DNA from: Planctomycetota bacterium
GTDB taxonomy: Bacteria > Planctomycetota > PLA2
Length of the DNA stretch: 39,145 nucleotides
Direction of reading: 5' to 3'
Assembly: GCA_027297745.1 (NCBI GenBank)
Contig: JAPUHK010000052.1
Span: 1-39,145 of the forward strand
Positions 8,356 to 37,666 of this stretch are shown here, one piece after another; positions within the stretch are counted from its first letter, which is position 1, and each line of letters starts with the position of its first letter. The position numbers and the translations under genes are program-made. The notes below the pieces were generated by a model. It was given only the letters and a program-made list of their open reading frames with translations. It was not told the DNA's origin and searched no databases.

Positions 8356-8533
8356 GGAAATCGCCCTGCACAACGCTCACGTGCGTCCCGAAAGGTGACG
8401 CCCACTCGAACAAGACCTCAGCCACGGGTAGCCCTTCTGCCGAAGATACCTGCGAAGCTCCGCGGGGCGAAGGCCCTCCGGATCGGGGGTGGGGACCAGG
8501 AATGACGACCTTCAAGAACAGACCAGCGGCCGC

Positions 8534-12891: not shown

Positions 12892-15800
12892 ACTTCACGC
12901 GCACGGGCTTCCTGCTCTTCATCGCCGCCGGCGTGCTCGCCATCGCGTTGCTCGCGAGCCTGGAGCCGCGCCGCACGCGCGACGCCGGCGTCGACCGCCA
13001 CACCGGGAAGCAGGTGTGGCTGACGCCGCGCACCGCCTCCCAGCTGCTGGGCGCGGCGCGGCGCACGGGAGCCGCCCCCGCGGCGCGGGACAAGATCCTC
13101 GAGTTCATCGACGGCGTGCCGGATCCGTACGCGGCGCGCATCAAGCTGGCGGTCTTCGAAGCCGAGCTGCAGGAACGCACCGCGCCCGAGCTGCATCCCT
13201 TCCGCGACGAGATCGTAGCCGACATCGTGCGCGCCGAAGCCGCCGAACGGGAGCTGGACCGCACGCTCACCGAGATGCGCGACATGCACAAGCTGGTGCA
13301 CCTGCTGCAGGAGCTCGAGGCCGACAACGCCGTCGGCGCCGCCACCGACGCCTTCTTCAGTGGCGGCAAGCCGCCCGAGTCGTTCGCCAACAAACAACTC
13401 GAGCAGCGCGTGCGCACCTGGGCGCCAGCGGACGCGAACGCGGCTTACACGCTGCACGGCTTCCGCATCGGCAGCCTCGAGCCCGAGGTCGACGTCTACC
13501 GCCTCGTCGCCCACGGTTACCGTGCGGCGGACCGCACGCGGGGGCGCATGCGCTGGCTGTTGCGCGGCCTGGTCAAGTTCCCCAACGACGCGAATCTGCA
13601 TCGCGAGCTGAAGCAGGCCTACCTCGAGCACGGCCGGCAACGCGAGGTCTTCGCCGTCGTCGGCGCCGAGCTGCACCGCTTCCGCGACGAGCTCGAGACC
13701 TGGATGGAGCGAGAGCAGCTGGCGCGTTGGATGGGCCTGCACGACCAGCGCATCCACGCCGTGGGACGCCTCGCCGAGCTCACGGGGGACCCGAAATGGG
13801 CGGCCGAGCTGGTCGAGATCTACAGCTACCGGGGCCGCCCGGAGAAGGCGCTGCCGTACGCCGTCCAGCTGGCGGAGAACGAGCAGACGGCGGAGGCCTT
13901 CGAGCGCCCGGTCGAGCTCGCGCTGGCCTCGATGCAGGTCGACGAGGCCTTCCGCTTGCTGGAGCGCGCCGCCGGGCTGAGCGACAACCCCCGCGAGTGG
14001 CGCGAGCGCATCGTGGAGTACGCGCTCCAGGACCTGCGCTACGACCGGGCGCTGCACGAGCTGGAAAACCTGCACGAGACCTATCCCGACGCGGGCTACG
14101 AAGTGCAGCTCGAAGGCTTGTACCGCAGGCGCGACATGCGCGCGGAGTTGGCGGACCTGCTCGAGGAGCGTTGGCGCCGAGAGTCCGACGACGACGAGCT
14201 GTTCATGGAGATCGTCGGCTTGCACACCTCGCTCGGACGCGAAGACCGGGTGCACGACCTGATGCGGCAGCGCCTCGCCGACGAGGAGGACCTCGACGGG
14301 CTGCTGTTCAAGATTCCCGTGTACCAGGCGGCGGGCATCGACGGCGCCGAGCGCCTGCGCGAGCTGGCCGCCGAACAGCAACTGACGCCCGAGCAGGTCC
14401 AGAGCGTGCTGGACAGCCTGACCGCGCTCTTGGATACGAGCGAGACGTTGCGCGCAGCCGCGCTCGTGCTGGCGCGGCGCTACCGGGAACACCCTGCGGC
14501 GCGCCCCATGCGCCTCGAGCTGATCGAGCGCATGCCGACACCGGAGGCGCGGGCGGGAGGCGCGCGGCAGCTGGCCGCGGAAGAGCCCGGAGACCCGGAT
14601 GCCGTGCGCGTGTGGGTCGAGCGCAGCGCGTGGGCCGGGCTCTTGAAGGATGAGATCGAAGCGCGCCGGGCCTTCGTGCTGCTGCGGCCCCAGGACCTCG
14701 AGAATCGCCGCAGCCTCGCCGACCTGCTCGAAGCGGACGGGCGCAGCGGCGAGGCGGGCGAGCACTGGGCGGTGCTGGCCGAGGCGGAGGGCCCCACGTC
14801 GGATGCGGCGCTGCGGCTGGTCGGGTCACTGTTCACCGCGGGCAAGCTCGCGGAGGCCATCGCATGGCTCGAGCAACGCGCGAACGACCCCGACGCCACC
14901 AACGAAGACCGCAGCCGCATCGCGGAGGAGCTGTTCGGCATCCAGCAGCACGACCGCGCGGCCCCTTTCTACCGCGCCATCCTGGGGCGCGAGCCGGACC
15001 ACGTGCTCGCACTGCTGCGGCTCGGCCAGATCCGTTCCTGGGGTAGCGACCCGCGCGGCGCGATCCCGTACCTCGAACGTCGCTTGAAGGTGACGGACGA
15101 GGACGCGGGCATGGTGCGCTACTTGCTCGGCGAAGCCTACTGGTCGATCCAGGACCGCGAGCAGGCGCTGCGCATCCACGAGGCCGCGCTGCCCGATCTA
15201 CTGCTCGCGACTCGGACCCCGGACACCGAGACGATGATCGCCAAGATCCTCGTACGGCTCGGGCGCGTCGAAGAGGCCGAGCCCATCTACGACGAGGTGA
15301 TCGCGAACGAGCCGCGGAACGTCCACCTGATCCTGGACTACGCCGACGCCATGGTGGCGGCGGGACGGCTCGAAAAGGCCCGCGCGATTCTCGAACGCGC
15401 GCGAGCGATCGAGCCCAAGCACGCGCGGCTGCTGCGTCTCGACGCGGAGATCCTGGTCAAGGAGAAGCGTTACGGGGAGTCCGCCGAGGTGTACCGCCAG
15501 GCGCTTCGCCTCTACGGCTCGGATGCCGGCCTCGAGGCCGGGCTCGGCTACGCGCTGGAGCTCGGCGGGTCGTGGGGGGACGCGGTCGGCGCCTACGGCC
15601 GCTCGCTGGTGTTGCAGCCCGGCAACCTCGACGTGGAGCGCTCCCTGGCGGATCTCTTCGAGCACGTCGGCAACCGCGTCAGCGTGGGCGCGCGCTGGAG
15701 CTTCATCGGCGAGGACTACGCGATCGAGATCCCGGCCGAGATCTCGTTCGCCTTCCGCGACTCGCGCGACCGCTTGACCCTCGGCGCGGGCGCGGGATTC

Positions 15801-16574
15801 TTCTCGGGGCGCGCGGCGGTCGTAGCGAACGGAACGGTACCGGTCGAAGACCGGATCGTCTCGCTGCGCGCGTCCTTCGCGAGCCGCTTCAACCTGCGCA
15901 ACGAGTGGGCCGTGGGCCTGGAAGGCTACCCCGGAGCGGCGGGCGACTTCCCGCTCGGCGGCTGGGGCTCGCTGCTGCTGCAGGGCTTGGAGCCGAGCCG
16001 CACGCTCGGCGTGCGAGTGGGCGTACACGAGCTGTTGCGCGCTCCGACCGCGTCCGTGGGCTTGGGCGGGCGCCGCACGGGCATCTCCGTGGAGGGGTCG
16101 CGCGACTTGGGACGGCGCTGGTTCGCCGGCGCGGGCGCCACGCTGGAATCGCTCTCGCTGGACCCGACCGGGCGCGACAGCGTCACCGACGGACGCTTCC
16201 TGGCCAACCTCAGCGCGGGGTACCGGATGAGCACGGCCGAGCCCCGCGTCGACCTGTACTTCAACTACAACCCGGTGCGCCTGCTCGGGAACCAGGAGCT
16301 GGCCGCCCTGATCCCGATCGGCGAGCGGTTCGACTACCTCACCGCAGGCGTGCGGCTGTCCTCCGGGCGGCCCAGGCTGCGTTGGCTGGTTTCTGTGTAC
16401 GCCGGTGTGGACGCACACAGCGACGACAACATCTGGGGCGTCGTCGGCGACCTGGTCTACCGGCCCGGGGCGCGCTTCGAGCTGCGCTTCGGAGGTGAGG
16501 CCGGCAGCGCATTCGGACGGAGCTCAACGGAGATCGGCGCCACGCTGCGGTTCGCAGCGGTGTGGCGCTGGTAG
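12888..16574 (+). CDS. pelB: PelB-like: N-terminal TM, long TPR region, C-terminal outer-membrane beta-barrel
   Basis: 1228 aa; N-terminal TM FTRTGFLLFIAAGVLAIALLASLEP; TPR repeats; C-terminal GARWSFIGEDYAIEIPAEISFAFRDSRDRLTLGAGAGFF...; start GTG overlaps the copy 2 stop (GTGA); position in the operon. Confidence 0.85.
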   Translation: MNFTRTGFLLFIAAGVLAIALLASLEPRRTRDAGVDRHTGKQVWLTPRTASQLLGAARRTGAAPAARDKILEFIDGVPDPYAARIKLAVFEAELQERTAPELHPFRDEIVADIVRAEAAERELDRTLTEMRDMHKLVHLLQELEADNAVGAATDAFFSGGKPPESFANKQLEQRVRTWAPADANAAYTLHGFRIGSLEPEVDVYRLVAHGYRAADRTRGRMRWLLRGLVKFPNDANLHRELKQAYLEHGRQREVFAVVGAELHRFRDELETWMEREQLARWMGLHDQRIHAVGRLAELTGDPKWAAELVEIYSYRGRPEKALPYAVQLAENEQTAEAFERPVELALASMQVDEAFRLLERAAGLSDNPREWRERIVEYALQDLRYDRALHELENLHETYPDAGYEVQLEGLYRRRDMRAELADLLEERWRRESDDDELFMEIVGLHTSLGREDRVHDLMRQRLADEEDLDGLLFKIPVYQAAGIDGAERLRELAAEQQLTPEQVQSVLDSLTALLDTSETLRAAALVLARRYREHPAARPMRLELIERMPTPEARAGGARQLAAEEPGDPDAVRVWVERSAWAGLLKDEIEARRAFVLLRPQDLENRRSLADLLEADGRSGEAGEHWAVLAEAEGPTSDAALRLVGSLFTAGKLAEAIAWLEQRANDPDATNEDRSRIAEELFGIQQHDRAAPFYRAILGREPDHVLALLRLGQIRSWGSDPRGAIPYLERRLKVTDEDAGMVRYLLGEAYWSIQDREQALRIHEAALPDLLLATRTPDTETMIAKILVRLGRVEEAEPIYDEVIANEPRNVHLILDYADAMVAAGRLEKARAILERARAIEPKHARLLRLDAEILVKEKRYGESAEVYRQALRLYGSDAGLEAGLGYALELGGSWGDAVGAYGRSLVLQPGNLDVERSLADLFEHVGNRVSVGARWSFIGEDYAIEIPAEISFAFRDSRDRLTLGAGAGFFSGRAAVVANGTVPVEDRIVSLRASFASRFNLRNEWAVGLEGYPGAAGDFPLGGWGSLLLQGLEPSRTLGVRVGVHELLRAPTASVGLGGRRTGISVEGSRDLGRRWFAGAGATLESLSLDPTGRDSVTDGRFLANLSAGYRMSTAEPRVDLYFNYNPVRLLGNQELAALIPIGERFDYLTAGVRLSSGRPRLRWLVSVYAGVDAHSDDNIWGVVGDLVYRPGARFELRFGGEAGSAFGRSSTEIGATLRFAAVWRW

Positions 16575-16582
16575 CGGGAGCG

Positions 16583-19500
16583 ATGACGAAGAAGAAACGT
16601 CAACGCAAACCCGCACGCAAGGCGGCCAAGCAAGAGGCCGTGCGCAAGAAGGTCACGCGTAAGAAGACCGCACGCAAGGCCGCCAAGCAAAAGGCCGTGC
16701 GCAAGACGTCCAAGCGCGCAACGACCAAGAAGAAGAAAGTCGTCTGCAAGAAGAAGACGCGCAAGGTCCTGCGGCGCAAACCGGCCGCCCAGACCGCCCC
16801 CAGCGACGATCCCGATGCGCTGAGTCCCTTCGAGGACGCGCTCCACGAAGGTGAGATCCCGACGCGCACGGATCTCCTGATCGATCCCAAGGACCTCGAA
16901 GCCGCCCAGCTCGAGGCCTCTGTACGTAACGACGAGACCGGGTCCGCCCGGCAAGACACACAAACTGAAGCGGCGCCGCAAACGGCTTGTCCTGACTCTA
17001 AAAAAACCCCCATCCAAAGGGATGAGTCACGCGGCGCCGCTCTTTCTTCCTCTGATCCTAGCCAGGAGGCCGACGCGCAGATACCCGAGACTCGCGATCT
17101 CACGGACGACGACCCGACGCAGACGGAGTGCTTCGACGGAGCCGAGGTGCCGGAAGCGGAAGAGAAGATCGAAGTGCTGAAGCCGGAGCTCAAGCTCGGG
17201 CCCGAAGAGTCCGGACTCTTCGAAGATGATCTGCCGACGCAGACGGAGATCTTCGATGACGCCGACGCGCTCAAGGCAGTGCAGGCGCTCGGTGAGCCCG
17301 CGCAGCCCAAACCCGAGGACGCCGGCGAGATCGACCTCGGCGAAACGCTCGTGGACGACCCGGGCGTCAAGCCTGAGGCAGTCACCCCGGGCGAGAACGA
17401 GCACGTGTCCGAGAGCGCGGGCGAGATCGATCTGGGCCAGACGCTCGTGAATGACCCGGGAATCACGCCGGAGCCGGTGCCCGAGCCGGACGAGCCCGAG
17501 CCGGAGGTCGAGCGCGTGCAGCCCACCACGCAAGCCACGGAGGCGGGCGACGAGGCGGAGGATGAACACCTCACCGAGACGCCCACGCGCACGGAGATCT
17601 TCGACGACCCGCTCGCGTTCGAGGCGGCCGTGACCGACGAGCCCGCCGCGCCCACGCTCGAGGCGGCCGGCACGGGCGGCAGCGGCGGCGGCGATGACGA
17701 CGACACCGGTGACGCGCCGCCGCCGGAGCCCGAACCCGAGAACGAGCCTGAAGAGGACCAAGACGCGCAGACCCCCGCGGACGAGCCGGCGACCGAAACG
17801 CCGACACGTACGGAGATCTTCGACGACCCGCTCGCGTTCGAGGCGGCCGCGACCGACGAGCCCGCCGAGCCCACGCTCGAGGCGGCCGGCGCGGGCGGCA
17901 GCGGCGGCGGCGATGACGACGACGCCGGTGACGCGCTGCCGCTGGAGCCCGAGGACGAGCACGAGCCCGCGCACGGCGACGTGCTGAGCGATATCGAGTT
18001 CTCGATCCACGACATGCAGACGCGGACGGATGCGGAGGCTCACGATTCCGGCGAGCGGGCCGCCGAGGACGCGCATGCTTACGACTTCGAGCCCGCCGAG
18101 ACGTTGCCGGACCTGCCGCAACCCGATGCGGACGAAGAGCTCCCGACGGAGTCGCTCGCGACCGTGACCTACGACCCGAGCTCGCTCCGGCCGGGGATCG
18201 CGGGCGACGCCGACACGGCTACGAGCGCCGATACGGCCGAGCCCACGGAGGGACCGTTCAAGCTCACGCGCAGCAACGAGCTGGACACGGAGCACACCGG
18301 ACCGCCTCCCGAGCCGGTCACCGCGACCGAGCTCTTCCGGGGCGACGTGGATCCGGCCACGATACGCATTCCGACCGAGGAGCCGGTCGAAACGCGCGAC
18401 CTGCACGACGCGTCCACGGTGTCCGGCGTACCGATCGAAGAGGCGGAGACCGAAGACCCCGACGCGACGCGCACGGAAGCGGCGGACCGCCACTCGATCG
18501 TGACCATCGATTCGCGGTCACTGGGTACGGTGTCGATCCACGACGCCGAGACGGCGGACCTCGAGGACATGGGGACCGTCACGCAGCAGGCGCGGGAGGC
18601 CGACGGGGCGGCGGCCGAGACCGACGTCTTCAGCGAAGGCTTCAGCACGGAGGCCTCGCTGGCGCGTTCGCACCACATCCTCGAGCACGTCCCGCCCCAG
18701 TTGGACTTCCTGCCTCCGGAGGCCGTGTCGTCACCGCAGCCCAAGGACAAGGACAGCATCGAGCGCGGCGAGACGCGCCTGCAGCGCTGGAAGCGCCGTG
18801 CCCGCAAGCCGTCCCGCTGGACGCCGCTCCTGCGGCCGCTGCAAGCAGGCTGGGACAAGCTGCGCGAAAAGGCGTCCGAAGGCTGGCAGAAGCTGCGCAA
18901 GGTCCCGTGGGACCAGCCCGTGCGCTGGTGGAAGGCGCAGCCGCGGGCGCAGCGGCGGGAGGAGACGTACTGGTGGCGCCGCACGCTGCGCGACGTGGGC
19001 ATCGCTTACGGCATCCTGCTGCCCTTCGAGCTGATCTTCAACGGCGGCAAGGTCGGGGCGTTCGGTGTGCACCCGCATCCCTACTGGCTGATCATCTTGC
19101 CGATGGCTGCGGCCCGCGGCGCGGGCGCGGCTCTGGTGGCGGCCGCGGTCGGCACGTTCCTGCACACGCTCGGCGCCATCGGGCGCCTGCACACGACCGA
19201 GGTACAGACGCTGCTCGACTACACGGTCATGCTGGAGCCGCTCCTGTTCTTCGGCGTCGGTTTCCTTGTGGGCGACTTCCGCGACGTGGCCGAAGCGCGC
19301 TATCGCGAGATCAAACGCAAGCGCCACAAGGCGGACGAAAAGGTGGACCGCTTGTACAAGGAGCGCGAGGTGCTGGCCGAGGCCAACCGCCTGCTCGAGA
19401 AGCGCCTCGTGGACCAGACCACGCAGTTCGGCAACCTGGTCGTAGCCGCGCAGCGCATGGAGAGCTCGGACCGAACGGAGGTCTTCGAGTTGGCGCTCGA

Positions 19501-21526
19501 CCTGGTCGACGAGCACTGCGGCGCGAACGCGTCGGTGATGCTCGTGCTCGACAGCGGGTCCGTGGACTTCCTGTGCTACCGCGGCTGGACGGAGGGCGAG
19601 GTTGGTACGCGCCTGTCCGACGCGCGCGACAGTGCGTTCGTGCAGCGGGCGCTGGACGACGGCACGCAGGTGAACGGCTTCCTGCCCGGCGAGTCGCCGC
19701 CCGAGAAGGGACCGATCGCCGTGGCGCCGCTGTTCGACGGGGAAGGCGTCGTGCGGGCGCTGCTCTGTCTGGACGACGTGCCGCCCTTCCGCCTCAACAG
19801 CAGCACGTTGAGCATCTTCTTCGGCATCGCGGAGTGGATCTCGGCGGCTATGGCGCGCCTGGACCGCCGCTCCGAGACGCCGGATCCGCGCAAGGCCTTC
19901 ACGGCCGCGCCGGAGGGCGACGCATGGATCGGCGACCGCAACGACCTGGGCGAGCGCCTGCGCATCGAGTACGAGCGCCTGGCCCGCTACGGCGTGCCGA
20001 CCAGCCTGCTGCTGATCCACGCCAGCGAGTACACGGACACGACCGCCGAGGGCCGCAAGAAACTCGACCGCTACATGGTCTGCCACTTCACCGGCAGCCT
20101 GCGAGCGTCCGACAATCTGTACAGATTCGGGTACCCGGGCTGCTACGTCCTGGTGCTGGCGGGAACGAATTCGGAGGGTGCCGAGGTGGTTCGAAAGCGT
20201 CTGTTGCGCCGTGTGCGCTACCGGCCGTCGCCCGTGGTCGGCGCGGTCGAGGTGGAGGTCACCGCCCCCGACGCGGAGGCGCCGGACCTGGTCAGCCTCG
20301 CCAGCCGCGTGGCCGCGACGTTCCGCGAGCGCAGCCCGCTCAAGCTGGACAGCGAGTGCCCGGTGCGGGTCCCGGCGCAAACGAAGCTCGGCAGCCTCGA
20401 CGATTTCATGCGCCGCCTGAAGATCGAGACCAGCCTCGCACTGCGCAACGGCCTCGACCTGCACGTCCTCGGCTTCTTCGGCAAGGAGACGCAGGGCGAT
20501 CCGGACCTGTTCGCGCGCCACCTGCACGAGGTGGCCTCGGACCTCTTGCGCCAGACGGATGCCGTGTTCCGCGTCACGCCCAGCCGTTGCGCGGTGGTGC
20601 TGCCGGCAACGGACGCCGAGCAGTCGGAGACGCTCGGCCGCCGCATCCTCGAGGCGCTCGCGGCGCGCGATCCCGACGCGGCCTACGGCACGCCCCGCGT
20701 GCGCCTGTTGGGTCTGGGGCCGTCGCATCCGGATCCGCGCGCCTTCCTGTTCGAGTTCGAGGACGAGGACGAGGACAAGGGTGACTCGCCCGGCGCGGTG
20801 GCTGAACTGCAGCCCGCGGTGCTGCGCGAGCCCGAGCCGCCCGCGACGCTGAAGGCCGAGGCGCCCTTGCCGGTCGTGCAGGAGGCGGAGCCGCGCGGGG
20901 ACGAGCCGGACACCGGCACGGTGACTCCGACCGAGCCGCGGGCTCACGGACCGGCGGACGTCCCGGGAACGGGGACCGAGGTCGATCCGGGTGCCGTGCA
21001 GCCGGAGCTCGAGAACGAGAAGGAGCAAGAGGGCGGGGACGGAACGGGGACGGCGACCAAGCTCGATGCGCAGACCGTCGAGCCCGATCCGCTGGACGTG
21101 ACGGGAACGGCGACGGAGTGCGACCCGCAGGCGCTTCAGGCGGAGTTCGAGCGGGAAGCCGACTCCGAGACGGAGCCCACGACACAACCCGCGGCTGATG
21201 AGGAGGAGAAGGAAGAGGACGGGGACGACTTCCCGACCAAGACCGAGATCTTCAATGAGTCCGACGCCTTCGGCAGGCACGGCTCGGACGCACGCCGCGC
21301 GGTTCCGCTGCCCGATCCGGAGCCCGAGCCCGAAGCGGACCACGACGAGGAAGACACCGACTCGGGAACCGTGGACGAGAGTAGCGACGAGACCGGGACC
21401 GGCGAGGACACGGACGTGGACGCGCCGATCCCCGAGCCGCCCACGCTGCGCGACGCGGCCGCCGGCGACGATGAAGCCACGGACACCGGAACGGTCGGCG
21501 AGTTCGACCAGGAGGACGAGTCTTGA
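16583..21526 (+). CDS. pelD: PelD-like c-di-GMP receptor with 4-TM region, GAF and tandem degenerate GGDEF-like domains; very large basic/acidic low-complexity extensions
   Basis: TM block LRDVGIAYGILLPFELIFNGGK...LLFFGVGFLVGDFRD; coiled coil; GAF-like region; RASDNLYRFGYPGCYVLVL (20102-20158) and RQTDAVFRVTPSRCAVVLP (20549-20605); sits between pelB and pelE. ATG 16583 preferred over GTG 16562. Confidence 0.85.
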   Translation: MTKKKRQRKPARKAAKQEAVRKKVTRKKTARKAAKQKAVRKTSKRATTKKKKVVCKKKTRKVLRRKPAAQTAPSDDPDALSPFEDALHEGEIPTRTDLLIDPKDLEAAQLEASVRNDETGSARQDTQTEAAPQTACPDSKKTPIQRDESRGAALSSSDPSQEADAQIPETRDLTDDDPTQTECFDGAEVPEAEEKIEVLKPELKLGPEESGLFEDDLPTQTEIFDDADALKAVQALGEPAQPKPEDAGEIDLGETLVDDPGVKPEAVTPGENEHVSESAGEIDLGQTLVNDPGITPEPVPEPDEPEPEVERVQPTTQATEAGDEAEDEHLTETPTRTEIFDDPLAFEAAVTDEPAAPTLEAAGTGGSGGGDDDDTGDAPPPEPEPENEPEEDQDAQTPADEPATETPTRTEIFDDPLAFEAAATDEPAEPTLEAAGAGGSGGGDDDDAGDALPLEPEDEHEPAHGDVLSDIEFSIHDMQTRTDAEAHDSGERAAEDAHAYDFEPAETLPDLPQPDADEELPTESLATVTYDPSSLRPGIAGDADTATSADTAEPTEGPFKLTRSNELDTEHTGPPPEPVTATELFRGDVDPATIRIPTEEPVETRDLHDASTVSGVPIEEAETEDPDATRTEAADRHSIVTIDSRSLGTVSIHDAETADLEDMGTVTQQAREADGAAAETDVFSEGFSTEASLARSHHILEHVPPQLDFLPPEAVSSPQPKDKDSIERGETRLQRWKRRARKPSRWTPLLRPLQAGWDKLREKASEGWQKLRKVPWDQPVRWWKAQPRAQRREETYWWRRTLRDVGIAYGILLPFELIFNGGKVGAFGVHPHPYWLIILPMAAARGAGAALVAAAVGTFLHTLGAIGRLHTTEVQTLLDYTVMLEPLLFFGVGFLVGDFRDVAEARYREIKRKRHKADEKVDRLYKEREVLAEANRLLEKRLVDQTTQFGNLVVAAQRMESSDRTEVFELALDLVDEHCGANASVMLVLDSGSVDFLCYRGWTEGEVGTRLSDARDSAFVQRALDDGTQVNGFLPGESPPEKGPIAVAPLFDGEGVVRALLCLDDVPPFRLNSSTLSIFFGIAEWISAAMARLDRRSETPDPRKAFTAAPEGDAWIGDRNDLGERLRIEYERLARYGVPTSLLLIHASEYTDTTAEGRKKLDRYMVCHFTGSLRASDNLYRFGYPGCYVLVLAGTNSEGAEVVRKRLLRRVRYRPSPVVGAVEVEVTAPDAEAPDLVSLASRVAATFRERSPLKLDSECPVRVPAQTKLGSLDDFMRRLKIETSLALRNGLDLHVLGFFGKETQGDPDLFARHLHEVASDLLRQTDAVFRVTPSRCAVVLPATDAEQSETLGRRILEALAARDPDAAYGTPRVRLLGLGPSHPDPRAFLFEFEDEDEDKGDSPGAVAELQPAVLREPEPPATLKAEAPLPVVQEAEPRGDEPDTGTVTPTEPRAHGPADVPGTGTEVDPGAVQPELENEKEQEGGDGTGTATKLDAQTVEPDPLDVTGTATECDPQALQAEFEREADSETEPTTQPAADEEEKEEDGDDFPTKTEIFNESDAFGRHGSDARRAVPLPDPEPEPEADHDEEDTDSGTVDESSDETGTGEDTDVDAPIPEPPTLRDAAAGDDEATDTGTVGEFDQEDES
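17572..17943 (+). repeat. 219-bp (73-codon) near-identical tandem repeat inside pelD
   Basis: ETPTRTEIFDDPLAFEAA.TDEPA.PTLEAAG.GGSGGGDDDD.GDA occurs twice; CGGAGATCTTCGACGACCCGCTCGCGTTCGAGGCGGCCG at 17592 and 17811. Confidence 0.9.
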
Positions 21527-22545
21527 GCAAGCTCCGCCCCGGAACCCTCGTGGGAGCGCTCGCCGCCTTGTGCGGCACCGCGGGCGTGTGGCTGATCGTG
21601 CGCAGCGAGCTGAACGGCGCGTTGCCGGTGGGCCTGTGCGCGCACGGCGCAGCTGCGTGGCTCGCGCTGTGGGCCGCCAGAAGGCGGCGGCCGGACCTGT
21701 CGCAGACCGAACGCGACACGGTGCTGCTGACAGCGCTGTTCGTGCCGCTGTTCGGACCGGCCATGGCGCCCTATCTGCCCGCGCCCGACAAGGAGCAGGA
21801 CGAGGAGGCCGCGAAGGAGATCTTCGACCGCTACAAGGAGTACATCAAGCCGCAGGTACCGGACTACGAGCGCTCCTTGTTCACGGGCGACATCGACAAA
21901 GACCTGGCGCGCGAGCTGGACGTGGAGAGCTACACGGAGGTCTTGAGCCACGGCAGCACGGACCAGAAGCGCAACGCGCTGAAGGCGCTCGCGGACCTGG
22001 GCGAGCCGAAGCACCTGGCGCTGGTGCGCGCCTGCATCAAAGACCCGGAGCACGAGGTGCGGCTGTACGCCTACGGCGAGCTGAGCCGCGTCAGCCGGCC
22101 TCACGAAGAGCGCATCGACAAGCAGATGCGCAAGCTGCAGGAAAACGCCGACGACGTGGACGCCTCCGCGGCCGCGGCCGACGCGCACTTCTGCTTCGCG
22201 TTCAGCGGCATCCTGGACCCGGGCATGGCCGCGTTCCACTACAAGGAGGCCAGCAAGGCCGCCGCACATGCGGCCGCGCTGGGCGCGCCGCAGCCGGGAC
22301 CGGCGATCCTCGCGGCACGCTCCTGGTGCGGGCTGCGCGACCTGGACCAGGCGCTGGCCGCGCTGGGGGCGCTCGAGCCCGTGCACCGGGGGGCCGACGC
22401 GGTGCGCGTGGTACGCGCGGAGATCGCCTACCTGCAGCGCGACTTCGACGCCGCGCGCGCGGAGGCGCACGCGCTACGCGACGCGGGCGCGGACGTGCCC
22501 GAGTGGCTGCAGGCCCTCGTGGAAACAGCGGAGGCAGGCGCATGA
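21523..22545 (+). CDS. pelE: PelE-like: two N-terminal TM segments plus helical/TPR-like cytoplasmic domain
   Basis: TTG start overlapping the pelD stop (TTGA); two hydrophobic segments then a helical repeat region; located between pelD and pelF. Confidence 0.7.
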   Translation: MSKLRPGTLVGALAALCGTAGVWLIVRSELNGALPVGLCAHGAAAWLALWAARRRRPDLSQTERDTVLLTALFVPLFGPAMAPYLPAPDKEQDEEAAKEIFDRYKEYIKPQVPDYERSLFTGDIDKDLARELDVESYTEVLSHGSTDQKRNALKALADLGEPKHLALVRACIKDPEHEVRLYAYGELSRVSRPHEERIDKQMRKLQENADDVDASAAAADAHFCFAFSGILDPGMAAFHYKEASKAAAHAAALGAPQPGPAILAARSWCGLRDLDQALAALGALEPVHRGADAVRVVRAEIAYLQRDFDAARAEAHALRDAGADVPEWLQALVETAEAGA

Positions 22546-24059
22546 AGAAACCGAGCGACATCTGCCTCGTGCTCGAAGGCACCTACCCCTTCGTCTCGGG
22601 AGGCGTGTCGTCGTGGGTGCACCACCTCGTGACGCACCTGCCCCACCTGACCTTCTCGGTGCTGCACATAAGCCCGACGCACAACTTCTACAACAAGGGC
22701 GCCTTGTACGACATGCCCAACAACGTCGTGTCGCTTGACGAGGTGCACCTGCACGAGTACGCCATCGAGGGCAAGGCCGACCCCGAGGTGTTGCGCGCCA
22801 AGGTGCAAAAGTTCCGCGGCATGGTGGTCGACATGCAGGAGGGCGGATCGAGCGCCTTCGAGGCCTTCGTGCACGCCGTCGAGGAGGGCCACTCGGGCGC
22901 TCTGAGTGGCTACCACTTCCTGCAGACGCTGGAGGGCTGGAAGGTCCTGATCGACACGTACCGGCGCGAGGCCGAGGAGGAGAGCTTCCTGAACTTCTTC
23001 TGGACCTGGCGCTTCGCCTTCCTGCCGCTGTTCAACGTGATCGCCGCCAAGATCCCGCTCGCGCACGCCTACCACACGATCTCGACGGGCTACGCCGGGC
23101 TGCTGGCGGCGGCAGCAAAGGTGCGCACCGGAAAGCCGATGCTGCTCACCGAGCACGGCATCTATGCGAAGGAGCGGCGCATCGAGGTGAACCGCGCCGA
23201 CTGGATCGAGGACTGGGACTCCGGCGAGATCGTCGCCCAGCGCACCGTGCCGTACTTCAAGCGCTACTGGATCCGCCAGTTCCAGATGATGAGCACGGTC
23301 ACCTACAACTTCGCCAACTCGATCTACACGCTGTACGAGGGCAATCGCAAGGAGCAGATCAAGGACGGCGCCGACCCGAACATCGTCGAAGTGGTGCCGA
23401 ACGGGATCGACATCGACCGCTTCGACGAGGCCGCGAAATGCTTCGCCGCGCGCCCGCCCAACAAGCGCTTCACGATCGGCTTCGTCGGGCGCGTCTGCCC
23501 CATCAAGGACGTGCGCACGCTGCTCGCGGCGACGCGCATCGTGGTGGAGGAGGTGCCCGACGTGCGCCTGCGCATCCTGGGTCCGATGGAGGAGGACCCG
23601 GAGTACGCGGGCGAGTGCCAGCGTTACGCCGTCGGCATGGGCATCGGCGACAACGTGGCCTTCGAAGGGCGCGTGAACGTGCTCGAGGAGTTGCCGACGT
23701 TGGATGTGCTCGTGCTGTCGAGCATCTCCGAGGCGCAGCCGCTGGTCGTGCTGGAAGGCAACGCCGTCGGGCTGCCGCTGGTGGCTACCGACGTGGGCTC
23801 CTGCGCCGAGCTCTTGTTCGGCCGCACGGCTGAAGACCGCGCGCTGGGTCCGGGCGGCCTGCTCACGTCCATGGCAAGCCCGGGCGAGACCGCGCAGGCC
23901 ATCCTGCGCCTGTACCGCGACCCCGCGCTGCGCAAGCGGCTGGGGGAGTCGGGGCGCCAGCGCGTCCGCGCACACTACGACCAGCGCGACATGACCGCCG
24001 CCTATGACGCGATCTACCAAAAGCACATCGCGCTCTCCAAAGAGGAGGTGAAAGCCTAG
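22542..24059 (+). CDS. pelF: PelF: GT4-family glycosyltransferase of Pel polysaccharide synthesis
   Basis: MKKPSDICLVLEGTYPFVSGGVSSWVHHLVTHLPHLTFSVLHISP; VVPNGIDIDRF; IGFVGRVCPIKDVRTLL; ATG overlaps the pelE stop (ATGA). Confidence 0.95.
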   Translation: MKKPSDICLVLEGTYPFVSGGVSSWVHHLVTHLPHLTFSVLHISPTHNFYNKGALYDMPNNVVSLDEVHLHEYAIEGKADPEVLRAKVQKFRGMVVDMQEGGSSAFEAFVHAVEEGHSGALSGYHFLQTLEGWKVLIDTYRREAEEESFLNFFWTWRFAFLPLFNVIAAKIPLAHAYHTISTGYAGLLAAAAKVRTGKPMLLTEHGIYAKERRIEVNRADWIEDWDSGEIVAQRTVPYFKRYWIRQFQMMSTVTYNFANSIYTLYEGNRKEQIKDGADPNIVEVVPNGIDIDRFDEAAKCFAARPPNKRFTIGFVGRVCPIKDVRTLLAATRIVVEEVPDVRLRILGPMEEDPEYAGECQRYAVGMGIGDNVAFEGRVNVLEELPTLDVLVLSSISEAQPLVVLEGNAVGLPLVATDVGSCAELLFGRTAEDRALGPGGLLTSMASPGETAQAILRLYRDPALRKRLGESGRQRVRAHYDQRDMTAAYDAIYQKHIALSKEEVKA

Positions 24060-24061
24060 CC

Positions 24062-26713
24062 ATGGCCGGCATCGGGTTCGAGCTGCGCAAGCTGGTCGAG
24101 GACAGGGACGACTTGTTCTCGCGCATCCGCGCGTACGTCTCCGCGGGGTTGATCTCCTCGGGCCCGTGGATCATGGCCATCCTGACGCTGTCCCTGTTCA
24201 GCCTCGGCGGCGAGCGGCTGAGCGGCAAGGAAGGGTACGAGCTGTTCCGCGCTCTCGTGACCTACGCCTTCGCCTTCAGCCTGATCGTCGTCGGCATCGG
24301 CCAGATGGCCATCACGCGCCAGGTCGCGGACCTGCTGTATTCGCACCAGCACGACCGGGTGCTGCCGGCCTTCCTCACGTGTTTCGCGCTGACGGGCGTC
24401 GTGCAGGCCACAATCGGGACGCTGTTCTGCGTGCTCGCCGGCTTCGGAGCAGGCCTCAGCTTCGTTGCCGTGTCGCTGTATGTGATCATCAGCCTGAGCT
24501 GGCTGGCGCTCGTCTGGCTGAGCATCATCCGCGAGTACGGCGAGGTACTGCGTGCCTACACGTACGGCCTGGCGGCCGCGCTGATCGTGTTCCTGATGGC
24601 GGCGCAGCTCGAAGGGGCGGTCGGCCTGCTCGGCGCGTATGCGGCCGGACAAGGCCTGACGCTCGTGCTGCTCCTGCGCGCCATCCTGCGCGGTATGGAC
24701 AGTAGCGGCGCGCGCGACCTCTCGATCGTGCCCAGCATGCGCGGCTTCCCGAAGCTGGTCGCCGTCGGGCTGTTCTACAACGCGGCCATGTGGGCGGACA
24801 AGATCGTCTTCTGGTTCGCGGACGGGACCGGACCGCACCCGATGGTTCGCTTCCATCCCCTCTACGACACGAGCACGTTCCTGGCCTACCTGACCGTGAT
24901 CCCGGCCCTGGCCCTCAACCTGGTGCGGCTCGAGACCGACTTCTACGAGCGCTACCGCGGCTACTACGGCGCCATCCTGGGCGGCATGCCGCTCAAGATC
25001 ATCGAGGAGCGGCGTGAGCGCATGTTCGACTCGATGCGCTACGGCGCCGTACGTCTCTTGCGCGTGCAGGGCGCGCTGACGGCGCTGCTGATCCTGTTCG
25101 CGCCCTACGTGATCACGACGCTCGAGCTGCCGGACGCCGCCGTGCGCATCTTCCGGCTGGCGTGTCTGGGGGCCTTCTTCCACGTGCTGCTGCTGATCAC
25201 GATCCTGATGCAGCTGTACTTCGACCTGCGCAAGGAGGCCATGTGGTCCTCGCTCCTGTTCCTGGTGCTCAACGCCGGCCTGGCGGGCTGGAGCGTGAAC
25301 ATGGGCGTGCACAGCTACGGCCTCGGCTATGCCGTGGCGACCTTCATCAGCCTGCTCTTCGGCTACAGCCTGCTGGGCAGCGGGCTCACGAACCTGGAGT
25401 ACCTGACGTTCACGAACCAGCCCGTGACGGACACGCGCGGCGACAAGAAGCGGGGCTGGGCGCTGTTCGGGAAGAAGAAGGCCACGCCGGAGCAGGTGGA
25501 GAAGACCGAGGAAGAGAAACAGGACGAGCTGCACGAACCCGTCGATCCCGAAGCCGCGGGGATGCACGTGGAAGCGGTGTCCCCCATCGAGCCCGTCGCC
25601 AAGCCCTCACCCGAGCCCGAGCACGAGCCGTTGGTTGACCCGGAGGCCCCCGCCAGCGAGATCACCGCGCTCACTGAGGACATCGCCGAGACGCTGCGCC
25701 ACGAACAGCTGTTGCGCGAGTCGTCGACGCGGCACGAGGACGAGAGCGGAGAGGTCGATCTCGGCGCCACTCCCACGCGCACGGAGCTGTTCGACGAGTC
25801 CGGCGCCTTCCACATCATCGCCGTCGGCGAGCCCGAATCCGGGCACGAGGACGAGAACAAAGAGGTCGATCTCAGCGCCACTCCCACGCGCACGGAGATG
25901 TTCGACGAGTCCGACGCCTTCCACATCACCGCCGTCGGCGAGCCCGAATCCGGGCACGAGGACGAGCAGGAGGAGGGCGAGGTCGATCTAGGCGCGACTC
26001 CCACGCAGACGGAGGTTTTCGGCGACCCGGCCGCGTTCGACGCCTCGGCCGAGGAGACGCCGCCTGCACTCGAACCGGAACCCGAACCCGAGACCGCCAC
26101 CGTCGATGCAACTGCGTTGCCGACCGACACCGAGCTGCTCGAGGATTCGGAGGAGCTCGAGCTCACGGACGAGGCAGCGCCGGAACCGCCGCCCGATCCG
26201 CAGCCGCAGCACGACGACCCCGTTACGGACACGCCGACGCACACCGAGGCCTTCGACGACCCCGGCGCCTTCGAGCGCGTCGTCTCGGAGCCGGAGCCCG
26301 AGGCTCCCCCGGAGACCTCAACCGACTCGGAGTCGGTGTCGGTCCCCGAGGAGCTGCCCGAGCTGGACGAAGACGATTTCGACCTGCACGACGTCGGCAC
26401 GCTGACCGGTGATCCGCTGGTCGACCGCATCGTCTTCGACCTCCCCCTGCACGAGGAGCAGACCGCGGACGATCCCGCGGCCCCCGGCCTGCTGGACGTC
26501 CCGGACATGGCGTCGGGGCCGGAAGGCGGCCGCGTTATCATCGACGTGCCTCCGCGCTCCGACGACCTGCACGACGCCGACACGGCGGAGTTCGACGAGG
26601 ATCCGGCGCAAGCGCGAGTGACGCTCGACTTGGACGACGAGAAGCCCGCGACGGACGACGACACGGGCGGGGAGCGCGACGACGGAGACATCCCCACCGA
26701 CACGGAAGGATAG
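24062..26713 (+). CDS. pelG: PelG: polytopic Wzx-like membrane transporter with a C-terminal acidic repeat extension of about 420 aa
   Basis: MAGIGFELRKLVEDRDDLFSRIRAYVSAGLISSGPWIMAILTLSLFSLGG is the PelG N-terminus; many TM segments to about 25420, then acidic repeats to the stop. Confidence 0.92.
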   Translation: MAGIGFELRKLVEDRDDLFSRIRAYVSAGLISSGPWIMAILTLSLFSLGGERLSGKEGYELFRALVTYAFAFSLIVVGIGQMAITRQVADLLYSHQHDRVLPAFLTCFALTGVVQATIGTLFCVLAGFGAGLSFVAVSLYVIISLSWLALVWLSIIREYGEVLRAYTYGLAAALIVFLMAAQLEGAVGLLGAYAAGQGLTLVLLLRAILRGMDSSGARDLSIVPSMRGFPKLVAVGLFYNAAMWADKIVFWFADGTGPHPMVRFHPLYDTSTFLAYLTVIPALALNLVRLETDFYERYRGYYGAILGGMPLKIIEERRERMFDSMRYGAVRLLRVQGALTALLILFAPYVITTLELPDAAVRIFRLACLGAFFHVLLLITILMQLYFDLRKEAMWSSLLFLVLNAGLAGWSVNMGVHSYGLGYAVATFISLLFGYSLLGSGLTNLEYLTFTNQPVTDTRGDKKRGWALFGKKKATPEQVEKTEEEKQDELHEPVDPEAAGMHVEAVSPIEPVAKPSPEPEHEPLVDPEAPASEITALTEDIAETLRHEQLLRESSTRHEDESGEVDLGATPTRTELFDESGAFHIIAVGEPESGHEDENKEVDLSATPTRTEMFDESDAFHITAVGEPESGHEDEQEEGEVDLGATPTQTEVFGDPAAFDASAEETPPALEPEPEPETATVDATALPTDTELLEDSEELELTDEAAPEPPPDPQPQHDDPVTDTPTHTEAFDDPGAFERVVSEPEPEAPPETSTDSESVSVPEELPELDEDDFDLHDVGTLTGDPLVDRIVFDLPLHEEQTADDPAAPGLLDVPDMASGPEGGRVIIDVPPRSDDLHDADTAEFDEDPAQARVTLDLDDEKPATDDDTGGERDDGDIPTDTEG
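25751..26040 (+). repeat. Three tandem acidic repeats (111-bp and 117-bp offsets) inside the pelG extension
   Basis: EVDLGATPTRTELFDESGAFHIIAVGEPESGHEDE / EVDLSATPTRTEMFDESDAFHITAVGEPESGHEDE / EVDLGATPTQTEVFGDPAAF; TCCCACG at 25771, 25882, 25999. Confidence 0.9.
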
Positions 26714-26742: not shown

Positions 26743-29700
26743 GTGCGCGTCTTCGGGGTCGGGTGTCTGCTGCTCTTGCTGTACGTACCGGGCTCGGCGC
26801 AAGAACAGCGCGCTCCAAAGCTGAACCTGCGCGCCGAGGCAGCCTTCCAGCGCGGCCGCGCCGCCCTCAACAACGGACAGAGCACGCAAGCGAACTCCTA
26901 TTTTCGGGAGGCGCTGCAGTCCCATCCCCGCTCGGTGCCGATCCTGGCGGCGCTCGTTCAAGCTTCGGGAGACCACGATGCGGACTGGCCGCTCTTGCTG
27001 CACCGGCTGGCCGCGGCGGCGGCGGACGAGACTGGCGCTTTCAATTTGGGGCGCACGACGCGAAGAGACCTTGGGAAGGACCGGCGGACGTTGGTCGCGG
27101 TGGAGAGGGCGCGCGCGCAGGCGTTGCTGGAACTCTACGGGGCCCGCGAAGCGCTCAGCGGTCCGGGCAGCGTCGCGCTCGCACGCGCTTATGCGGACAT
27201 CCAGGCCGAGCTTGCGGCAGAGTCGGAGACACACTCCGCCGGCGTCGACGAGGGCGCACCGCCCGAGAGCTTCGTGCCGCCGAGCGCGCCGGTGACGGCC
27301 GCGCTCGCGGCGCTGTGCACACGACTGTTGGAGGAAGGCAAGGCGCAGGAAGCCTTCGATGCGGCTGCCTGCCTGCGCGGACTGGCCGCCCAGGCCGCGT
27401 TCCAGCACCTCAACGGTACGGTCCCGGACCTGGCAGCGGAAGGCGCGCTTGCCGCGGGAGTGATGCACCGCGCCCGCCGCCGCTTGTTGGGCAAGCCGCC
27501 CGCGCCCGTGCAGCGCCCTCCGCCACCGCGCGAGGTGGAGCAGGAAGAGGAGGACGAAGAGGGTTGCTCCGAGATGCTCGAGGGCGACGAGGACCTGCCC
27601 CCGGAACACGAAGACCAGGAGATCCGCGATCCCGAGCCGGACTTCGACCCGACGGGTGCGGCGGAACGCGCGATCACGGACGAGCACCGGCGCATGTCGA
27701 AGCCGGCCGTCGCGTTCTCTCCCCGTGGCTACTACCGCGTCGAGACCAGTTGCGGCGCGCAGACGTTGAAAACGGTCGTCGAGCAGATCGAACAACATCA
27801 CGCACGCCTGGTGCGCTGGTACGGCAAGGACCCGTTCCTCGAGTGCTCGGGCATCGTGCGGGTGGTGCCGGACTTCGCGGACATCGAGAGCGAAGGGCAG
27901 CCGTACCACTGGGCGCGGGGCTTTCAGCGCGGCGACACGACCGTCGTGCGCTTCGCCGTGAGCGGCAAGCTAGAGCTCGCGCGGCTCCTGACCCACGAGC
28001 TGACCCACCGCTTCGACAGGCGACTCTACCCCGCGATGCCGAGTTGGCTGGCGGAGGGCCGCGCAGTCTACACGGCCGCGGCCTTCCATCTGCCCCCAGA
28101 CAAGGAGTTCCTGGAGCTGGCCATGGACTGGGAGCGCGTGCGCGGCGCACGCAATACGCACTACGGAACGCCGGAAAAGCTGATCCGGCTGCTGCGCGAC
28201 GAGCCGCGCGACTATCGTGACAACTACACGGCGGGTCACGCCCTGTGGATCTACCTGACCACGTGGCGGCCCGGTGTGCGCAAGGCGTTCGCCCCTCAGA
28301 TCCCGAAGTGGCTGAACAGCATGAAGCTGCCCGGCAAGGACCCGTACGTCGCCTTCAAACACTTCTTTATGGACGGAAAGGGCGGACGGCCGAATACCCT
28401 GCGCCGCTTCGCTTCCGGGTTCAAGACGTTCCTCAACGGTTTCTTCCTCGAGGAGCCGCCGGCGTGGACGAAACGCTACATCCGCAACTGGACTCCCCGC
28501 GGCTCCTTTGTCTACGACGCCCCGACCTGGCCCTATTCGAAGCGGCGCTCAGAGCCCTTCTTCGGCCAACGCCACGCGGCGCGCGCAGCCGACATCCTGT
28601 GGCGCCACGACGACCCGGCCGCCCTGGAGGCGCACGAATGGGCGCTGCACGTCGACGGCGACAGCCCCGAGCGCCTCATCATGCTGGAGCGCTTGCTGCA
28701 GATCCGGAACCTACCTGCGGGCGTCTGGGCTGTCCGCCGCATCCTGCACCGGTACGGCGAGGCCGAGGCAACCGACAACGGCGCGCCTTCGGCGATCGTG
28801 GGAGAGCGCTCTGCCTTTCAACGCTACCTCAAGGCACTGCGCGGCGCGGCCGCCTACTGGCGCAAACGGGACTTCGCCGACGCCGCTGATGCAGTCGAGC
28901 GCAGCGCCCTGCGGCTGCAGCGCAGCGCGGGCCTGCCGGCGGCGACGCCCGGCGCGATTCCCGCGCGCATGCTGCGCCCGCAAGTGCACTCGCCCGCGGC
29001 CTGGGGCTGGAAGGAGGACACGCTCGTAGGCTACGACCAGTGGCGCGCCATCGGCTTGTGGCACGAGACGCCGGAGGGCGATCTCGTCGTCGGCAGCACG
29101 AAGGGATCGAGCGTCTCCGAGGCGCGCAGCTTGCGTATCCATCACTGCTTCGTGCGTGGCCGGCGGCCGCTGTCCGGCGCCTACGCGCTACGCACGCGCG
29201 TCCACCTGTTGCGCCCGTACGTGCAGGGAGCGCTCGTGCTCGGTCGCACCCGCCGCGACCGGCACGTGCGCCTGGAGTTCGAAGCCGGTGACGAGCACTA
29301 CGCCGCGGGACGCGGCAAGGAGCGTGCGCCGCTCGGCTATGTCCGCGTCCGGTTGAGCACCCTCAGCGAGCGCGAACACGTTCTGCCCGGCTTCGGCGAC
29401 TGGGTGCAGGTGCCCACGGACGGAAAGCACCCCGACTCCTTCGAGGTGCTGCTGCTCGTGGACGGCCCTCAGGTGCACGCCTTTGTGGAGCGTGCACACG
29501 TGCTGAGCCACTACGACCTGCGCGCACGCGACATCGCCGGACACTACGGCTTCGCGGTGGAGATCGGCTCCTTCCGCGTCGGGGACGCGCAGGTGACCGA
29601 GTTTCCGGCCGGCGCGCCGGAGCAGGTCGGTGCGGCGCCGTGGCCTCAGCCGTATTCGGCGGCGCGCTTGCCGCTGCCCGCGCAAGTGTTGCACCGCCCC

Positions 29701-30093
29701 ATCGAAGGCGTGCCGCTGCACACGGAGGGCACGTTGATGATCTGGTTCCCGGGCCCTGTGGACCTGAACGTCGAAAGGGCCGACTTCCTGCTGCGCGCCC
29801 ACCGCACGTGGTTCGAGAATGCGGCGAAGTCGCGCACAGTACGCAGCGCGGCGCAGGTCATGATCGTCGTGCCGGAGGCATGGCCCGAAGTGGAGCGCGA
29901 GTGGTACAAAAAACGCGCGCAGGCGGCCTGCCGCAGTGTGCAGCTGCGAGCAGTGGGCAAGGATGTCGACGGGGCGCCGGACTACCCACTGTTCGTTTTC
30001 GTGGACCCGCTCGGCGTCGTACGTGCCTCCGCAGGCGGCGGGCAGTGGCAGTGGCGCGGCGCGCCCTGGTTCAGGGCCTACCGCGGTTGGTGA
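26743..30093 (+). CDS. Exported TPR/DUF1570-like HExxH zinc-peptidase-type protein with C-terminal thioredoxin-fold-like segment; last gene of the Pel operon
   Basis: Signal peptide VRVFGVGCLLLLLYVPGSAQ; HELTH (27994-28008) followed by WLAEGRAVY; starts 29 nt after the pelG stop; C-terminus YPLFVFVDPLGVVRA resembles TlpA-like sequences. Confidence 0.75.
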   Translation: MRVFGVGCLLLLLYVPGSAQEQRAPKLNLRAEAAFQRGRAALNNGQSTQANSYFREALQSHPRSVPILAALVQASGDHDADWPLLLHRLAAAAADETGAFNLGRTTRRDLGKDRRTLVAVERARAQALLELYGAREALSGPGSVALARAYADIQAELAAESETHSAGVDEGAPPESFVPPSAPVTAALAALCTRLLEEGKAQEAFDAAACLRGLAAQAAFQHLNGTVPDLAAEGALAAGVMHRARRRLLGKPPAPVQRPPPPREVEQEEEDEEGCSEMLEGDEDLPPEHEDQEIRDPEPDFDPTGAAERAITDEHRRMSKPAVAFSPRGYYRVETSCGAQTLKTVVEQIEQHHARLVRWYGKDPFLECSGIVRVVPDFADIESEGQPYHWARGFQRGDTTVVRFAVSGKLELARLLTHELTHRFDRRLYPAMPSWLAEGRAVYTAAAFHLPPDKEFLELAMDWERVRGARNTHYGTPEKLIRLLRDEPRDYRDNYTAGHALWIYLTTWRPGVRKAFAPQIPKWLNSMKLPGKDPYVAFKHFFMDGKGGRPNTLRRFASGFKTFLNGFFLEEPPAWTKRYIRNWTPRGSFVYDAPTWPYSKRRSEPFFGQRHAARAADILWRHDDPAALEAHEWALHVDGDSPERLIMLERLLQIRNLPAGVWAVRRILHRYGEAEATDNGAPSAIVGERSAFQRYLKALRGAAAYWRKRDFADAADAVERSALRLQRSAGLPAATPGAIPARMLRPQVHSPAAWGWKEDTLVGYDQWRAIGLWHETPEGDLVVGSTKGSSVSEARSLRIHHCFVRGRRPLSGAYALRTRVHLLRPYVQGALVLGRTRRDRHVRLEFEAGDEHYAAGRGKERAPLGYVRVRLSTLSEREHVLPGFGDWVQVPTDGKHPDSFEVLLLVDGPQVHAFVERAHVLSHYDLRARDIAGHYGFAVEIGSFRVGDAQVTEFPAGAPEQVGAAPWPQPYSAARLPLPAQVLHRPIEGVPLHTEGTLMIWFPGPVDLNVERADFLLRAHRTWFENAAKSRTVRSAAQVMIVVPEAWPEVEREWYKKRAQAACRSVQLRAVGKDVDGAPDYPLFVFVDPLGVVRASAGGGQWQWRGAPWFRAYRGW

Positions 30094-34445: not shown

Positions 34446-36017
34446 CTAGCCGGCTCCGCGCGCGGCCTTCTTCTTACCCGGCTTCCGCTTCTTCTCTTGC
34501 GGCGCGACGGACTTGTAGATGCCGCCGTTCTCGTTGGAAAGCGAGCGCATGAAGCCGGCGTTGTGCTGCCGCCCGATGCCGATCGTGTGGATCTGCACCC
34601 GTTGCAGAGCGTTCCACTCGGCCACGGCGTGCAGCGTCCGCTCGGGATCCTCGACCTCCCCCTTCGAAGTCGTCGGGGAGCCGTCGGAGACGAGATAGAT
34701 GGCGTCCGCGTTGAGCTTCGTGGGCACGGGGTACACGCCCGCCAGCTTGAAGGCCGTCTGCATGGCCATGTAGATGTTGGTCGAGCCCACCGGCGCGATG
34801 TCCTCCATGCGCGCCTCCAACTCCTCGTAGTTCGCCTTGCTGGCGGGCACGAGCTCTTTCCAAACGGCCTCCGCGCGCGAGGAGTACAGGATCACGGTGT
34901 ACTTGCGGCTCGGGTGCAGCGCCTTGACGGCACGCAGCAGCTGACGCTTGGCCGCGTCCCAGCGCGAGTCCTCGTCGATCGAGGCGGGAACGCTCTTCTT
35001 GCCGATCCAGCGCGGGTTTCGCATGGACACTTCCATCGAGCCGGAGACGTCGACCACGTAGACGATGCGGTCCGCCTGCGGCAATCCGTAGAACAGGTCG
35101 CGCTCGGCGGCCTTCACGACGGCCTTGCCGCCCCCCATCGGATACTCGCCGCGTTCGACCTTGTGCCCGTTGCTCTGCCACCACTGCGCCCACAGGTCGG
35201 CGTACGGGCCGATCGGCCGGCGCGTGAGGATCTGCAACGCCGCGGTCACCTCACGCTGCGCGCGCTTGTTGACGCGCTTGCGCCGGAGCGCGTCGATCAG
35301 CGGCTTTACGGCTTCGCGCCGCTCGAACGCGGCGAGCGCGCGGGCGGCGGCGATGCGCACGGCCGGGTCGCCGCTGGGCAAGAAGATGACCACGCGGTCG
35401 ACGGCGTCCCCGGCGGGCTTGCCGGCCTTGTGCAACGCTTGCAGCAAGGGCACGACCTGCTCCGGGCGCTTGGCCTTTTGCAGCGCGCGCAGCAGCACGT
35501 TCAAGTTGTCGGACGCCGCCGTGGCCACGTGCGTCGCGATCTCGCGCAGCAGCAGCGGCGACCGCACGCGCCCCATGCCCTGCTCCGCCAGCCAGGTCAG
35601 CGACTCATAGGACTTGAAGCTGCGTATGCCCTCGACGATGGCGCGTTTCTCGGCCTCCGCCCGGGCCAGCGCAGCGTCGTCCTGCGCCTCCGCGCGGTAG
35701 AGCTTTTCGAGCTTGCCCGGGGGCCTGCTGTCCAGCGGGCGCTTCTCGAGCTTGGTGATCTCCGCGCGCAGGTCCCCTAGCCTCTTCTGCAAGCGCTCCA
35801 AGCGCCCCGTGAGCCCGGTCCAGACGGACAGCAACAGCTCCGCTGCCTTGGGCTGGTCCACGGACGCCACTTCGCGCAAGAGCGCGAGCCGCTGCTCCGC
35901 AGGCGCCTTCTGGGTGTAACCCTCCCGGAAGCGCTTGTGCACCTCATCCCACTCTTGCGCGTACGCCGGCGGCAGGACCGTGGCCAGGAAGACAAGGAGT
36001 ACGGCAGGGCGGATCAC
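34446..36017 (-). CDS. Exported HEAT-like plus vWA-domain protein, paralogue A
   Basis: GTG start overlapping the upstream stop; IVYVVDVSGSMEVSMRN MIDAS motif; YLVSDGSPTTSKGEVED. Confidence 0.8.
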   Translation of the reverse strand: MIRPAVLLVFLATVLPPAYAQEWDEVHKRFREGYTQKAPAEQRLALLREVASVDQPKAAELLLSVWTGLTGRLERLQKRLGDLRAEITKLEKRPLDSRPPGKLEKLYRAEAQDDAALARAEAEKRAIVEGIRSFKSYESLTWLAEQGMGRVRSPLLLREIATHVATAASDNLNVLLRALQKAKRPEQVVPLLQALHKAGKPAGDAVDRVVIFLPSGDPAVRIAAARALAAFERREAVKPLIDALRRKRVNKRAQREVTAALQILTRRPIGPYADLWAQWWQSNGHKVERGEYPMGGGKAVVKAAERDLFYGLPQADRIVYVVDVSGSMEVSMRNPRWIGKKSVPASIDEDSRWDAAKRQLLRAVKALHPSRKYTVILYSSRAEAVWKELVPASKANYEELEARMEDIAPVGSTNIYMAMQTAFKLAGVYPVPTKLNADAIYLVSDGSPTTSKGEVEDPERTLHAVAEWNALQRVQIHTIGIGRQHNAGFMRSLSNENGGIYKSVAPQEKKRKPGKKKAARGAG

Positions 36018-37573: not shown

Positions 37574-37666
37574 GGTTCGAATTGTAGCCCTTATCTGGGG
37601 CCCATCGGACTGCCCTTGCCTGACCCCGAGCCCGCACCCGCCGGATCGGGCTCACGGGGGACCCGG

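Follow-up and report, generated by a model that had tools for sequence, protein, structure and literature searches.

The Pel exporter subunit PelG and MurJ are distantly related transporters of the MOP type. In mycobacteria, an FHA protein binds the cytoplasmic C-terminal part of MviN (MurJ), which undergoes phosphorylation (PMC11898655, citing Gee 2012), and the M. tuberculosis ABC exporter Rv1747 is driven to cluster by phosphorylation together with FHA domains (PMC7761784). GarA, OdhI, and Bdellovibrio DgcB use a disordered Thr tail whose pThr+3 residue is hydrophobic and which is read by an FHA domain, and DgcB joins this phospho-tail reading to a GGDEF protein (PMC6733907; PMC4322841). 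The residue at +3 is one that FHA domains often use (PMC6733907). For Pel itself, control by protein phosphorylation has been no more than suggested, and this for the cotH-like gene of Gram-positive loci (PMC7112168).

The pel locus described here carries a shared threonine motif on long acidic tails of PelD and PelG and can be set beside each of these systems. MviN–FhaA is comparable in that an exporter, there of envelope precursors, has a C-terminal part in the cytoplasm; MviN has a pseudokinase domain, and in the Pel case two different subunits bear low-complexity motif arrays. Like the Pel exporter with its presumably disordered tails, Rv1747 is a membrane exporter with a disordered region (PMC7761784), but it bears FHA domains itself; none was detected within PelD or PelG, and a reader acting in trans would therefore be required. 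The GarA sequence T-T-S-V-F places Phe at +3 as in T-E-x-F of the Pel motif, but the tails of GarA, OdhI, and DgcB act on their own FHA domain and have one or two Thr sites. MviN–FhaA and Rv1747 are precedents for pThr–FHA control of envelope exporters.

The window, meaning the whole 39,145-nt stretch of DNA analysed, contains a genuine pel cluster on the + strand with two PelA-like genes, PelB, PelD, PelE, PelF, and PelG. The adjoining PelA-like genes (8489-10633 and 10798-12891, assigned by position and homology) have no Pfam or NCBIfam match in the profile search, and both match one single gene in relatives. They are followed by a PelB-like TPR protein (PelB, 12888-16574), PelD (16583-21526, identified by fold and gene order), PelE (21523-22545, by a homologue and gene order), PelF (22542-24059, NF038011, E=1e-143), and PelG (24062-26713, PF16933, E=2e-120). 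PelD starts at the ATG at 16583, with a GTG at 16562 as a possible alternative. The PelF and PelG families stand in order with PelD, PelE, and the export porin, and gene-order comparison finds homologues of the pel gene set in identical order in relatives. Among the pel-cluster genes profiled, no kinase or FHA gene turned up. The gene set, the PelG and PelF families, the GAF-GGDEF fold of PelD, and its RxxD I-site are all shared with the Pel systems of P. aeruginosa and B. cereus. One departure from canonical Pel is that PelD here bears long tails and, next to its first degenerate GGDEF-like domain, a second, where P. aeruginosa PelD has one.

The core of PelD, aa ~760-1390, is predicted to hold about four TM helices, a GAF domain, and two degenerate GGDEF-like domains, and two GGDEF regions are also what profile matches find. 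The Pfam family PelD_GGDEF has no match in this genome, but neither has its control, which makes that negative uninformative. Among PDB folds, the PelD structures of P. aeruginosa match the core best, with 4dmz at the top and 4etz and 4eu0 beside it, at low overall TM-scores and from a model of moderate quality (mean pLDDT 77.5, pTM 0.48). The two GGDEF-like domains, a feature of this class of PelD, lie in tandem at aa ~1115-1398 (19925-20776), and each has an RxxD: the I-site LRASD in the first (aa 1173, 20099..20113, +) and LRQTD in the second (aa 1322, 20546..20560, +). PelD thus combines a GAF-GGDEF fold with the RxxD of a c-di-GMP I-site. The RxxD of the first domain is kept in two relatives, G001 and G040, and lost in three sister-family sequences aligned, and the LRxxD of the second is invariant in all seven aligned PelD homologues. 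Since the RxxD is kept, control of PelD by c-di-GMP is probably retained, and phosphorylation would be an additional input.

Outside these conserved cores, both proteins consist of acidic low-complexity sequence. The first 75 aa of PelD are rich in Lys and Arg (net +33) and are followed by ~717 acidic residues (net -127); at the other end is an acidic C-tail of ~254 aa (net -65). PelG has its PF16933 core at aa 1-450 and then an acidic C-terminal tail of ~430 aa (net -105). The basic PelD segment (16583-16807) is histone-tail-like, with an internal repeat at 16611 and 16668, and is absent from G001. The tails of both proteins are presumably disordered. Both ends of PelD should be cytoplasmic, because its GAF-GGDEF part must be cytoplasmic and is preceded by four TM helices. 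For exporters of the PelG type, a cytoplasmic C terminus is likewise expected, so every copy of the motif is predicted to be cytoplasmic. The hydropathy of both proteins is compatible with this placement, which for the strict Thr motif array on the PelG tail derives from expected topology.

An earlier note on this DNA had pointed to the same acidic Thr motif repeated in PelD and PelG. This observation is confirmed: every copy it listed is present, and the case has become stronger. The consensus is PTxTExF[DN][DE], in which the x before F is mostly hydrophobic. The form PTxTExF[DNG] occurs nine times, and with degenerate forms there are 11 scoring copies, six in PelD and five in PelG; five lie in the acidic N-tail of PelD, one in its C-tail, and five, with one truncated copy in addition, in the C-tail of PelG. 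All are on the + strand. The first, PTRTDLLIDPKDL at PelD aa 93 (16859..16897), is found by the motif HMM, and PTQTECFDGAEVP at aa 178 (17114..17152) and PTQTEIFDDADAL at aa 218 (17234..17272) by both the DNA pattern and the HMM. The copy PTRTEIFDDPLAF appears twice, at aa 334 (17582..17620) and, 219 nt further, at aa 407 (17801..17839), in the two copies of a tandem duplication whose DNA is 92% identical over 176 nt. The C-tail copy PTKTEIFNESDAF is at aa 1551 (21233..21271; DNA pattern and HMM). In PelG, PTRTELFDESGAF at aa 571 (25772..25810), PTRTEMFDESDAF at aa 608 (25883..25921), and PTQTEVFGDPAAF at aa 647 (26000..26038) belong to three tandem 111-nt units with 94% and 65% identity. They are followed by the degenerate PTDTELLEDSEEL at aa 687 (26120..26158; HMM), by PTHTEAFDDPGAF at aa 725 (26234..26272; DNA pattern and HMM), and by a truncated PTDTEG at the C terminus (aa 878, 26693..26713 including the stop codon). 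None of the 12 P[ST]x[ST][ED] sites has Ser: Thr fills the two positions throughout, although Ser accounts for about one third of the Ser and Thr of the tails.

Two companion motifs accompany the array, also on the + strand. E[IV]DL[GS]xT has two copies in PelD (aa 249 and 281, 17327..17443) and three in PelG (aa 564, 601, and 640, 25751..25999), where each immediately precedes a PTxTExF copy. [DS][LI]HDxxT has three copies in PelD (aa 474, 606, and 651, 18002..18553) and two in PelG (aa 774 and 835, 26381..26584). Both were defined post hoc and their counts are descriptive; the one shuffle figure, for [DS][LI]HDxxT, is five observed across both proteins against 0.005 expected. PelD and PelG have three motif families in common, all containing or ending in Thr.

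The array is not a product of tail composition, as 5000 composition-preserving shuffles of the tails gave a mean of 0.002 and a maximum of 1 for PTxTExF[DNG], against the nine observed. Nor is the motif widespread in the proteome, contrary to one way in which the earlier note might have failed. Scanning the 3.69-Mb genome for DNA that encodes TxTExF and then one of D, N, G, S, E, K, or R gives 12 matches, nine of them in PelD and PelG and three as singles inside ordinary globular proteins (cytochrome-like, SpoIIE-like, and PilT-like). A 19-column motif HMM built from 10 instances gives, at E<=10, exactly 11 genome matches, in PelD and PelG only; the genome is 94% complete, and a few proteins lie outside these searches. 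In a comparison with 390 phylum genomes, the strict DNA pattern has nine matches here and never more than four in any other genome, and the matches listed for those others are scattered.

Relatives retain the tails in part and lack the motif. In a phylum sample of 26 intact PelG proteins, the C-tail measures 431 aa in this genome and 186 aa in G001 and does not exceed 32 aa in the remaining 24, so that a long tail is confined to this PelG and that of G001; a distant Spirochaetales PelG was left out of the comparison. G001 (L048), of the same family and another genus, is the only same-family relative with full PelD and PelG, and its PelD has an N-terminal extension of ~420 aa that is mostly acidic. 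G002 was set aside for the tails, since its contig truncates PelG and holds no PelD; the motif HMM at E<=10 has no match in that genome. The two acidic tails of G001 lack PTxTExF, the motif HMM having no match there either, and they have no detectable resemblance or shared motif with one another (alignment Z -0.8). No similar motif cluster occurs in the 390 phylum genomes either, which together with G001 speaks against conservation of the motif in relatives. The earlier note had proposed to check whether relatives conserve the tails: G001 keeps acidic tails on both proteins and lacks the motif. Absence of the motif from PelD and PelG of close relatives, which that note had named as evidence against its idea, is what G001, the sole usable relative, presents. 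As G001 has acidic tails without the motif, the tails either predate the motif array or arose twice. Within these comparisons, the nearest of which is with another genus, the array appears private to its own lineage.

In one rival reading, the tails are low-complexity sequence under weak selection, enlarged by slippage, by duplication in place, and now and then by exchange between the two neighbouring genes, and the motif has little function. The two tandem duplications, both recent, agree with such low-constraint growth and explain part of the copy number, leaving ~8-10 independent occurrences. So do the restriction of the tails to this lineage and of the motif to this genome among those compared. 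Codon differences between the tandem copies are also more often amino-acid-changing than silent (8 v 6 of 58 in PelD, 6 v 0 of 37 in PelG), and the duplicated blocks as wholes therefore bear no sign of constraint. The non-tandem copies, however, hold the 13-residue core (23-83% identical) and lose the flanks (mostly 0-30%), with synonymous sites near codon-usage expectation, which is the pattern of selection on the peptide. Beyond the motifs, moreover, the PelD and PelG tails have no detectable common sequence: the PelD N-tail aligns with the PelG C-tail at Z=8.6, falling to -0.6 with the motifs masked and to 2.5 with them deleted. In this alignment, 81 of 131 identical residues use the same codon, against 74 expected from codon usage. 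Codon identity is 0.47 at the fixed Pro (0.45 expected) and 0.47 at the first Thr (0.46 expected), and it is somewhat raised at the second Thr (0.59 against 0.46) and Glu (0.82 against 0.69), as expected if tandem copies contribute. Since synonymous codons at the fixed Pro and the first Thr are as mixed as usage predicts, peptide likeness has outlived DNA likeness. That one tail was recently copied from the other is not supported, with the masked tails unrelated and codon identity near expectation; an old tail copy followed by divergence, giving the PelD and PelG tails an ancient common origin, is possible. The simplest reading of these sequences is that the peptide motif was kept or regained while DNA similarity vanished, and growth under low constraint is an unlikely account of the whole.

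A common docking partner for the PelD and PelG tails, as the earlier note proposed, is quite likely; it fits a motif found only in these two proteins, with every copy predicted to be cytoplasmic, codon identity near expectation, and no detectable similarity between the masked tails. Whether such docking needs phosphorylation is where the accounts part. An acidic-aromatic TExFDD might bind a folded partner, or the basic PelD N terminus, in unmodified form, and multivalent stickers of this kind would cluster PelD and PelG with Thr serving shape or helix capping. An aromatic core with an acidic flank is frequent in docking peptides, a strongly basic 75-aa N terminus faces very acidic tails, and both the confinement of the motif and the motif-only similarity would suit any shared partner. 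Charge alone nevertheless leaves the two strict Thr positions and the three Thr motif families unexplained, and G001 has acidic tails yet no basic N terminus. Charge-driven or otherwise phosphorylation-independent docking is a serious rival, with a chance clearly short of even. For the Hanks-type kinase and FHA control that the earlier note also raised, the support is circumstantial and comes from the Thr-only sites, a likeness to mycobacterial pThr sites, and the kinases and FHA domains of the genome. Of 40 M. tuberculosis pThr sites that have been localised, seven match T-[DE]-x-[FILMV], against seven of 246 other positions (PMC4322841 Table 1), a small comparison across phyla whose controls come from the same short, hand-trimmed peptides; examples include EAPpTEVIR, QDpTEAIA, and AVpTEPLA (PMC4322841). 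Chou 2012 gives no PknB motif. The genome encodes 19 FHA domains and has 40 kinase-domain matches, corresponding to ~35 Hanks kinases, with four FHA-kinase fusions, so that both components are available, and the abundance of both in such genomes makes their presence weak evidence. A phospho-Thr/FHA reading of the motif is plausible, at odds a little short of even.

Docking of a shared partner by the motif array, most likely in a phosphorylation-dependent manner, is the best explanation of the whole, with a probability of roughly 45%. In this proposed mechanism, disordered cytoplasmic arms of PelD and PelG would present a multivalent Thr-centred array with its two companion motifs and recruit one partner to both proteins, uniting PelD with PelG and thereby gathering or regulating the Pel synthase/export complex. 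A Hanks-type kinase would phosphorylate the second Thr of the motif, or both, and an FHA-domain protein or FHA-kinase would bind pT-E-x-F, adding a phosphorylation input on top of the c-di-GMP input of PelD. Docking, phosphorylation, recognition by FHA, and any influence on Pel are all inferred here. A fuller form, in which PelD reads c-di-GMP and one FHA protein reads the multisite pThr of PelD and PelG to cluster or gate the complex, is more tentative. Some bacterial groups have an expanded Hanks-kinase/FHA signalling for which few targets are known, and the mechanism, if true, would tie such signalling to how a biofilm polysaccharide exporter is assembled. It would also be a clear example from bacteria of a linear motif that selection has kept on two subunits of the same machine, and PTRTEIFDDPLAF would be a compact bait peptide for finding the reader.

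Some minor features may be noted. An FHA protein of the genome, L028, has a TGTIAF stretch after its FHA domain that is slightly like the Pel motif, a single weak likeness. Directly after pelG lies a large gene (26743-30093) whose HELTH motif is metallopeptidase-like, although the gene matches no Pfam peptidase. Further along, on the - strand in the region 34446-37715, a von Willebrand A-like segment (VDVSGSM) occurs in two neighbouring genes that appear to be related.
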